Of a stretch of 64,000 nucleotides of DNA, positions 56,963 to 60,037 are shown piece after piece. A model generated the notes under the pieces. It did no database searches, was not told the origin of the DNA, and worked only from the letters and a program-made list of their open reading frames with translations. The DNA lies in the NCBI GenBank assembly GCA_949127775.1, contig CASBQF010000019.1, positions 1 through 64,000 on the forward strand, read 5' to 3'. The translations under genes and the position numbers were made by a program. Source of the stretch: Oscillatoriales cyanobacterium PMM_0080 (GTDB lineage Bacteria; Cyanobacteriota; Cyanobacteriia; Cyanobacteriales; Microcoleaceae). Each line of letters begins with the position of its first letter. The first letter of the stretch is position 1.

Positions 56963-57577
56963 TTAGATTTTGGATTTTAGATTACCACTTTCTGTGCAAA
57001 TTCCGTGCAGCGGTTTGTCCCAGGAGTCAACTGGTAGTTTGGCGAGCAAGGCAAATTCAAAGATAATGCCGATCGCCATTTTTGATTCCCACTCAGCTAA
57101 ACTGAGCATTCTGTCATAGTAGCCACCGCCGTAGCCCAAGCGATAGCCGCGAACATCGCAACCTACAGCCGGTACGAGGATTAAATCTACTTCTGAGTGG
57201 TCTATTTTAGGAGCATCAGGCAGCGGTTCTTGGATGCCATAAGCGACCGTATGTAAAGCATCTCCGGGCTGCCAGATGTGCCAGGATAGCTGTTTGCCGA
57301 CACAGCGTGGAAATCCCCATTTTTTGGGGATGGTAAATAGAGGACTTAAATCTGGTTCTTGGCGAAAGCTAAAGTAGGCAAGAATTGTTTTTGCTTGGGT
57401 AAATAGGGGCGAGTTTTGTAGGTGGTTGCAAAGTCGATCGCTCTTTTCTCTCCATTCTTGTGCTGATAGGGATTTGCGGGTGTTCAGGAGCGATTTTCTT
57501 AATTCGGTTTTAGTTAATGAAGGTTCAGGAGTATTCATCATACAGTCATGAAAAATCGTTGGTAGTGAGGAATGCAA
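56963..57577 (-). CDS. 5-formyltetrahydrofolate cyclo-ligase
   Basis: ILAYFSFRQEPDLSPLF, LILVPAVGCDVRGYRLGYGGGYYDRML. Confidence 0.92.
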   Translation of the reverse strand: MHSSLPTIFHDCMMNTPEPSLTKTELRKSLLNTRKSLSAQEWREKSDRLCNHLQNSPLFTQAKTILAYFSFRQEPDLSPLFTIPKKWGFPRCVGKQLSWHIWQPGDALHTVAYGIQEPLPDAPKIDHSEVDLILVPAVGCDVRGYRLGYGGGYYDRMLSLAEWESKMAIGIIFEFALLAKLPVDSWDKPLHGICTESGNLKSKI

Positions 57578-57644
57578 GTCCTTGAATTTTAAGGACTTGC
57601 ATTCCGAAATATCGAGCCAATCTTATTATGGTAGTTTGATTTGT

Positions 57645-59003
57645 CTAGGATTTGCGATCGAGACGAATCGCTTGTTCCAAAGCAGTTTTTTCCCTGGATC
57701 TCCGCACGTAAGGCTGCAACTTAGCAACATCCCAGCCAGTCAAAATCTGCATATCTTCCAAATTCATCCCCCGCATTAACATCTCCACGCACCAGGTTTG
57801 TTGAGTTTGTTCGATCGCGATTGCCTCTGCTTCAACACCAACTAATCCCGCAATCAATTCTTCCCACAACTCTACTAAATCATTTTCCGACAGCGGTTTT
57901 CCAGTTCGATTTAAAAACAAAGCTGACTCGCTGTCTTTCCGGCTTTTCAACCACTGAGTCAGCGGATTGTTAGTATAAGAACCGTAGCGCTTGCCCAAAA
58001 TCCACTGATTGACGGGAACTTGCCGCCCCAAACCTTGGGTGACTTGCAGCAGTTGTTGGTGAGAATCGCTGATGTGGTGCGATCGCCCCAACCCAACAAT
58101 CTCATTTGCACTCAATCCCGATCCAAACAAAACATATACTAAAGCATATTGTGGCATTCCCAGCTTTTTAGCCCGCTGCAAAATACTGCCGACTAAATTT
58201 GCTGGCAAATCTGACACATTTTCCCCAGCAGTTTTTTTAGTCGTTAACTCCGATTTAATAGTAGATTGATTCTGGGCGATCGGGCGATCGAGAATTTGAG
58301 CATCCACCCCACCAGACGACAAAATCGTAGCTTCCACCTTCCGATCCTCACTCAAAAAACTAACATTCTCCTTTTCTTCCTTCTCATCAAAAGACGATAC
58401 AGCCCCGTGCAAAAACAGCGTGACCAAATTTTCCAAAAAATCCTCCCGATCCTGCCAAAGTTCGTGAAATTCGCTAGTAAACTCAATCACCGCATATCCC
58501 ACCAACATCCCATTGAGTAAACTCGCCAGCTTTTCGGCGCTCAAATTCGTGTGCAACTTCTCGCGATCGATCGCAGCAGCAAAATATTCCGCTGCGTAGC
58601 GGTTGACTTCCGTAAAGCCTCTACCCAAAGCCGCCCGATTTTCTGCGGGGTACTTTCCTGCTTCGCCCACCACCGATCGCACGACTTCGGGAACCCTTTC
58701 TAGGGATTCCAAACACGCAATAGCGTAGTCTTTGAGGGCTTCGTGAATGCTGCTAGTCTGATTTGTCCGATCGACTAAACTTTCACCCAACTTAGTAAAT
58801 ACGGCAGCCTCTTCAATGACTGCCAAAAGCAAGCCGTGCTTGCTTCCAAACTGCCGAAATAGCGTTACCTCATTAACTTCAGCTAATTCTGCAATTTGCT
58901 TAGTCGTGGTTTCGGTAACTCCCCGAGAGACAAATAACTCTAGCGCTGCACCGATTAAACGCTGCCGAGTTGGATTCCGTTGAGCGGCCATAATAAATTG
59001 CAA
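57645..59003 (-). CDS. TetR/AcrR-type regulator with C-terminal tyrosine-recombinase-like domain
   Basis: TetR HTH RQRLIGAALELFVSRGVTETTTKQIAELAEVNEVTLFRQFGSKHGLL; C-terminus ALVYVLFGSGLSANEIVGLGRS...ALFLNRTGKPLSENDLVELWEEL...TWCVEMLMRGMNLEDMQILTGWDVAKLQPYVRRS. Confidence 0.88.
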   Translation of the reverse strand: MQFIMAAQRNPTRQRLIGAALELFVSRGVTETTTKQIAELAEVNEVTLFRQFGSKHGLLLAVIEEAAVFTKLGESLVDRTNQTSSIHEALKDYAIACLESLERVPEVVRSVVGEAGKYPAENRAALGRGFTEVNRYAAEYFAAAIDREKLHTNLSAEKLASLLNGMLVGYAVIEFTSEFHELWQDREDFLENLVTLFLHGAVSSFDEKEEKENVSFLSEDRKVEATILSSGGVDAQILDRPIAQNQSTIKSELTTKKTAGENVSDLPANLVGSILQRAKKLGMPQYALVYVLFGSGLSANEIVGLGRSHHISDSHQQLLQVTQGLGRQVPVNQWILGKRYGSYTNNPLTQWLKSRKDSESALFLNRTGKPLSENDLVELWEELIAGLVGVEAEAIAIEQTQQTWCVEMLMRGMNLEDMQILTGWDVAKLQPYVRRSREKTALEQAIRLDRKS

Positions 59004-59176
59004 GCGTTACTTGCATAAAAAGGAAACGCCTGTTAAGCTAAATATGTAAGTAAAACTTGCACTTCCTGTTCCACCTGTAACCGTATGCTTTCGCGAGCAT
59101 CAGTTTTAACCAGTGTATAGGGGAAGGCAGATCGATGTTTTGTCAGCAGAGCGCCGTTATCTAAAATAAAGACTTC

Positions 59177-60037
59177 ATGACTTATAATTCCGTCGAAACG
59201 GCCCTTGAGGGCAAACAGTCGATCGCATTTAACTGGACGACTGCGGCATTTTTTGGGATAATACACGGCTTAGCATTATTAGCCCCCTGGTTTTTTTCTT
59301 GGTCTGCTTTAGGTGTAGCGATATTTCTGCACTGGCTGTTTGGCAGCATTGGGATTTGCTTGGGATATCACCGAATGTTAACTCATCGTAGCTTCCAAGT
59401 GCCTAAATGGCTAGAATATGCGATCGTCACAATAGGTGCTTTAGCCTTACAAGGCGGGCCAATTTTTTGGGTTTCTGGGCATCGGCAGCATCACCTTTAT
59501 ACAGAAGATAACGATCAAGATCCTTACTCCGCACGGCGCGGTTTTTGGTGGAGTCATATGATATGGATCTTTTACCCGCACCAAAAGTTTTTTGATTACG
59601 AAACTTACAAAAAATACGCTCCAGATTTAGCGAAAGATCCATTTTACCGCTGGTTAGATCGCAACTTTTTGATACTACAAATTCCTGTAGGAATCTTGCT
59701 GTACCTAATTGGTGGTTGGTCATTTGTGATTTACGGCGTATTTCTCAGGGCCGTTTTGCTGTGGCATAGCACTTGGTTAATCAACTCTGCCAGCCATATG
59801 ACAGGCTACCGCACATTCAAGTCCCAAGACAATTCTCGAAACCTTTGGTGGGCAGCAATTCTCACCTACGGAGAAGGCTGGCACAACAACCATCACGCTT
59901 ATCCGAACGTAGCAAAAGCTGGATGGAAATGGTGGGAAATTGATATGACTTGGTGGGCGATTAAAATTTTGCAAGTGCTGGGTTTAGCCAAGAAAGTGAT
60001 ACTGCCACCACGAATTGCTACCGATTCAAAGTTTTAA
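59177..60037 (+). CDS. Acyl-lipid/acyl-CoA desaturase (DesC/delta-9-like)
   Basis: His boxes GYHRMLTHRSF, GHRQHHLYTEDNDQDPYSA, GEGWHNNHHAYP. Confidence 0.93.
   Translation: MTYNSVETALEGKQSIAFNWTTAAFFGIIHGLALLAPWFFSWSALGVAIFLHWLFGSIGICLGYHRMLTHRSFQVPKWLEYAIVTIGALALQGGPIFWVSGHRQHHLYTEDNDQDPYSARRGFWWSHMIWIFYPHQKFFDYETYKKYAPDLAKDPFYRWLDRNFLILQIPVGILLYLIGGWSFVIYGVFLRAVLLWHSTWLINSASHMTGYRTFKSQDNSRNLWWAAILTYGEGWHNNHHAYPNVAKAGWKWWEIDMTWWAIKILQVLGLAKKVILPPRIATDSKF

Follow-up and report, generated by a model that had tools for sequence, protein, structure and literature searches.

A cyanobacterial fusion of a TetR regulator with a catalytically dead tyrosine-recombinase domain, linked to a fatty acid desaturase gene

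This study revealed that Oscillatoriales cyanobacterium PMM_0080 encodes a protein in which a TetR regulator is joined to a catalytically dead tyrosine-recombinase domain, and that its gene is divergent from a fatty acid desaturase gene, with two predicted operators between them. The window analysed was the stretch of 64,000 nucleotides at positions 1 to 64,000 of contig CASBQF010000019.1. The fusion, the fold, the catalytic loss, the purifying selection, the linkage to the desaturase and the operator footprint were all computed directly. The combination of known parts, a recombinase-fold repressor and a TetR desaturase regulator, is real, conserved and apparently new: no report of a TetR-recombinase fusion, or of a TetR regulator of cyanobacterial desaturases, was found in the open-licence literature. 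In this fusion, which is chromosomal and occurs across the cyanobacteria, selection has maintained a recombinase catalytic domain attached to a TetR regulator; the presumed target and the operators of the fusion are predicted at single-base resolution. It is a direct candidate for controlling the transcription of a DesC-type desaturase in these bacteria, and it offers a clean setting in which to study the function of a recombinase domain after recombination ceases.

Domain architecture and fold

The fusion gene occupies positions 57645..58991 on the minus strand, stop codon included, and encodes 448 amino acids. The sequence-only reading had described a TetR regulator carrying a catalytically dead tyrosine-recombinase domain, and this description is borne out by Pfam matches to both domains, an XerA-like fold and the loss of the catalytic residues. 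TetR_N (PF00440) was found at residues 12-58 (E 5.3e-12, 45.8 bits against a cut-off of 24) and Phage_integrase (PF00589) at residues 266-430 (E 4.1e-9, 36.9 bits against a cut-off of 27.1). The start had been placed at a TTG at 59003; that codon falls within the predicted proximal operator, and the start conserved among relatives is the ATG at 58991.

The TetR domain (residues 1-200; 58392..58991, minus strand) comprises a helix-turn-helix (HTH) at about residues 1-60 and an all-helical core of the ligand-binding type, as delimited by TetR_N and Foldseek. The N-terminal part is a member of the TetR family, as its HTH scores above the cut-off, a helical ligand and dimer domain follows, and the predicted operators are palindromic. 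TetR structures matched over about 200 residues, with a TMt of up to 0.78. The top match of the full-length model, lying over the TetR part, was the FadR of T. thermophilus in complex with lauroyl-CoA (3anp), and XerA ranked about equally. The FadR match had an E value of about 2e-6 and many other TetR structures scored about as well, so that no orthology is claimed. FadR (3anp/3ang) resembles the TetR part, but it has no C-terminal domain.

Residues 201-256 (58224..58391, minus strand) form a variable, disordered linker, delimited by a pLDDT below 50 and a dN/dS of 0.28-0.72. In the full-length model, which reached a pTM of 0.47, residues 203-256 had a pLDDT below 50. No core-binding domain precedes the catalytic-fold domain: the N-terminus is the TetR domain and residues 203-256 are modelled as disordered linker.

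The dead domain itself spans residues 257-448 (57648..58223, minus strand), as defined by PF00589, by profile and model matches to XerA and by dN/dS. The C-terminal domain is a member of the tyrosine-recombinase family by both fold and sequence homology. A comparison with XerD and Cre had been suggested as a check of the fold. The profile of the domain matched the solved structures of XerA (4a8e, E 3.9e-9), Tn1549 Int and XerD. An AlphaFold2 model of the isolated domain (mean pLDDT 93.4, pTM 0.90) found XerA (5hxy) as its best Foldseek match, with an E value of 2.1e-8 and a TM score of 0.73 by query length, followed by Tn1549 Int, XerH, Cre, XerD and lambda Int; an unrelated fold was not found. 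The domain thus shares the catalytic-domain fold and detectable sequence homology with XerA, XerC and XerD, whereas it lacks their catalytic constellation and core-binding domain, has an acidic recognition helix and carries an insertion of about nine residues relative to XerA.

Loss of the catalytic residues

The catalytic site was compared in 121 relatives and in active integrases. The first catalytic arginine was correctly read as serine: Ser294 (58110..58112, minus strand) stands at the Arg-I position, where serine was found in 94 of the 121 relatives and arginine in 3. The loss of the HxxR segment was likewise upheld, with Glu394 in place of the histidine and Gln397 in place of the arginine. 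Across the 121 relatives, the His-II column contained glutamate in 82 and histidine in none, and the Arg-II column contained glutamine in 96 and arginine in 23. The H/W position, Trp420 in the window protein, was tryptophan in 82 and cysteine in 25. The same columns of the alignable active integrases, used as a control, gave Arg 17/17, His 17/18, Arg 18/18 and His 18/18. No relative held the full R-K-H-R-H/W-Y set (0/121), and the commonest state, observed in 58/121, retained only the H/W-position residue and the tyrosine.

The tyrosine that had been assigned to the nucleophile position is indeed kept as Tyr428 (57708..57710, minus strand), and its column holds tyrosine in 115 relatives and phenylalanine in the other 6. 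The assignment to that position was only partly correct, since the distance from the H/W residue to the tyrosine is 8 residues in the fusion family versus 9 in active enzymes, so that the residue is nucleophile-like rather than exactly at nucleophile spacing. A residual recombinase, nuclease or topoisomerase activity acting through Tyr428 could be argued from the near conservation of this tyrosine and from two relatives (L130 and L009) in which Arg-I, Arg-II, Trp and Tyr are all held. These two are nested among catalytically poor members, however, and their Arg-I therefore looks like an apparent convergence or re-gain. Given the absence of any member with the full set, the many members reduced to two residues, the replacements of tyrosine by phenylalanine and the spacing that is one residue off, we consider such activity very improbable and have rejected it.

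Conservation and selection

The sequence-only reading had suggested looking for the same fusion in other cyanobacteria, and had named a frameshift or assembly join as the circumstance that would undo it. The fusion was found to be widespread. A search with the C-terminal domain only matched 41 of 386 cyanobacterial genomes, and the match always lay inside an open frame of 399-496 codons. The genome collection yielded 305 relatives. The best 80 were retained; all were cyanobacterial, and both domains lay in a single open reading frame in 79 of these 80 loci. The sole split gene was that of L095, a metagenome-assembled genome (MAG) locus. A frameshift or assembly join is ruled out by these single frames.

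Between close relatives, the TetR part had a dN/dS of 0.13-0.15, the recombinase part one of 0.20-0.23 and the linker one of 0.28-0.72. The value for the recombinase part indicates that the domain is under purifying selection and is maintained rather than decaying. The split gene in L095 is the one observation that would fit an artefact of annotation or assembly, a frameshift or a pseudogene in decay; set against the single frames in 79/80 database loci and in 41/41 matching genomes, and against the selection on the integrase part, this explanation is practically out of the question.

The divergent desaturase and the predicted operators

The presumed target is a DesC-like fatty acid desaturase gene at 59177..60037 on the plus strand (PF00487, E 4e-22), for an enzyme that introduces double bonds into membrane lipids. 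A PF00487 desaturase was the adjoining divergent gene in 98 of 101 loci, and the remaining three (L103, L121 and L153) end at contig ends before the position of the desaturase, so that the linkage holds in 98/98 informative loci. The desaturase was the only conserved neighbour, with no other gene common to the loci. Its histidine motifs, HRMLTHRSF, GHRQHH and GEGWHNNHHA, are DesC-like by sequence when compared with those in PMC4390868. In its own genome, the linked desaturase is the third such paralogue, with 50-52% identity to the other two. Some genomes that contain an orthologue of the linked desaturase (72-75% identity) lack both the fusion and the operators beside it; such orthologues were seen at loci L176-L182 (genomes G003, G005, G007, G027, G013, G011 and G038).

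The space between the two genes contains a pair of 17-bp palindromes, TGCAAGTnnnACTTGCA and a variant ending in TTACA. The proximal predicted operator, O2, is TGCAAGCGTTACTTGCA on the plus strand (58999..59015) and is flanked by the putative promoter of the fusion gene on one side and by its ATG on the other. The distal predicted operator, O1, is TGTAAGTAAAACTTGCA on the plus strand (59045..59061), adjoins the putative -10 element of the fusion gene and is on the desaturase side. Both were delimited by a phylogenetic footprint of 113 loci, in which the half-site bases were nearly invariant, and the rest of the intergenic DNA was only weakly conserved. Complete loci that had initially been scored as operator-less proved to have the operators further upstream. 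In the relatives, HTH residues N40-E41-V42-T43, F45, R46, F48 and K51 are invariant, a pattern that matches the invariant half-site. The centres of O1 and O2 are 46 or 47 bp apart in 97 of the 113 loci and 43-54 bp apart in nearly all the rest. As this range spans a full helical turn, two dimers need not be strictly phased.

Next to O1 is a conserved -10-like element of the fusion gene, and O2 separates this element from the start codon. The promoter assignment is a putative one, read from the bases, and a consensus scanner made no promoter call for the fusion gene. Within its own genome, the operator pattern matched the two sites and, more weakly, one site in a coding region, and 15 other genomes contained 2-4 matches each; the reversed pattern, used as a control, gave zero matches in each of these genomes. 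A large regulon was rejected, as the pattern is nearly unique to the locus in all 16.

A further repeat lies downstream of the fusion gene. Positions 57569-57605 contain a perfect 15-bp inverted repeat, GGAATGCAAGTCCTT...AAGGACTTGCATTCC, with TGCAAGT and ACTTGCA half-sites 15 bp apart. Two close relatives retain part of this repeat, and others lack it. It is probably an intergenic hairpin and not an operator.

Proposed function of the regulator

The fusion is very probably a regulator of the divergent desaturase. This function is suggested by the divergent desaturase gene and the paired operators, both of which were absent from the earlier description of the locus. More specifically, we are inclined to regard it as a locus-dedicated, autoregulated TetR repressor of an acyl-lipid desaturase, carrying a domesticated recombinase domain. 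TetR dimers would bind both predicted operators in the shared promoter region, and the bound protein would be expected to block its own promoter and probably that of the desaturase too. Release would be brought about by a ligand. An acyl thioester is plausible here, given the analogy to MadR (PMC8872791) and the FadR match; by the same analogy, the TetR domain is probably acyl-sensing. The recombinase domain, having lost recombination, would have been kept for a non-enzymatic job, either joining dimers on O1 and O2 or holding the dimer.

Such a function has precedents. DesT and FabR are TetR-family regulators of desaturase genes. MadR is likewise a TetR-family desaturase regulator (PMC8872791). 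The fusion resembles these three in being a TetR regulator tied to a fatty acid desaturase gene, and acyl-CoA-type ligands act in those known cases. All three consist of a plain TetR protein, whereas the fusion also bears a recombinase domain.

Role of the dead recombinase domain

With regard to the C-terminal domain, the sequence-only reading had proposed a DNA-binding or oligomerisation module. Of these, canonical DNA binding is disfavoured by the charge of the domain and by an acidic helix, while oligomerisation or another protein contact has become likelier. The helix in question is taken to be equivalent to the one that meets the major groove in Cre and Xer structures. Its net charge is -2.5 in the fusion family versus +2.8 in active enzymes, and that of the whole domain averages +2.7 versus about +7, the active-enzyme charge mean being slightly low and including two unaligned rows. 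Because the net charge is lowered and this helix is acidic, protein-protein bridging is favoured over canonical DNA binding. We tentatively propose that the dead domain serves in bridging or oligomerisation, a possibility that falls somewhat short of probable.

The family also has a specific basic segment, residues 329-354 (about 57930-58007, minus strand), with a mean charge of +4.1, which could contact DNA. It is the best-conserved stretch of the dead domain (GKRYGSYxxNPLxxWLKSRKD) and includes a family-specific insertion of about nine residues relative to XerA, after strand 3.

The closest precedent is MrpR (YopR), the master repressor of prophage SPbeta and a transcriptional repressor with a recombinase fold (PMC10516654). 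In MrpR, Arg-I is replaced by valine or serine and the histidine by asparagine, whereas the lysine and the tyrosine are kept, and the tyrosine matters for DNA binding and stability; its authors suggested that such recruitment of the recombinase fold may be more widespread (PMC10516654). The fusion likewise has a recombinase fold without recombination, Arg-I and His lost and Tyr kept. MrpR, however, consists of a core-binding and a catalytic domain and binds DNA via that fold, whereas the HTH of the fusion comes from TetR; the context of MrpR is a prophage and that of the fusion a host metabolic gene. The example of MrpR, the retention of Tyr428 in 115/121 relatives and the basic segment would all fit a role as a second DNA-binding module, clamping the DNA that lies between the operators or next to them. 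Nevertheless, we consider such a clamp unlikely, given the low charge of the domain, the acidic helix, the weak conservation of the intergenic DNA outside the palindromes and the lack of the core-binding domain that MrpR has.

A sensor or partner-docking domain, which might, for example, respond to a ligand or dock to a kinase or a membrane-linked protein and would affect DNA indirectly, appears similarly doubtful. It would account for the conservation of the family-specific residues R323, N328, Y336-G337, N342-P343-L344, R351, W376, Q395 and T399-W400 despite the lost catalysis, and it has a parallel in TnsF, the target selector of Tn6022, whose partial catalytic domain is predicted to contact TniQ, with support from mutants (PMC10293859). 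TnsF too is an inactivated and re-used recombinase catalytic domain, but it is fused to zinc fingers and serves targeting or docking as a transposon component, whereas the fusion is a TetR regulator. Against a docking role, the desaturase is the sole conserved partner gene. A more speculative and rather improbable idea is that the dead domain ties repression to the shape of the DNA: by subunit contacts like those of recombinases, it would keep O1 and O2 in a complex that is looped or depends on supercoiling. The desaturase would then be released upon a change in DNA topology, for example in the cold. If true, this would be a metabolic repressor that uses a recombinase synapse without recombination.

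Origin and plasmid copy

A free-standing ancestor of the dead domain was sought by a profile search of 386 cyanobacterial genomes and rejected: the fused family had E values below 1e-72, followed by a gap to ordinary integrases at E 4e-9 or weaker, and no close family without the TetR part was found in these genomes. A scan of viral contigs yielded no relative that would indicate a viral origin. Spread by plasmids was rejected as well: the only plasmid copy, again adjoining the desaturase gene, is that of Gloeothece citriformis PCC 7424. This copy (L197) lies on pP742403, a 29-kb mobilizable plasmid bearing the pair of desaturase and TetR-recombinase genes, and its product is annotated as a TetR regulator only. 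The pair adjoins a gene for an orange-carotenoid-protein N-terminal domain and an ssl1498-type light-harvesting-like gene.
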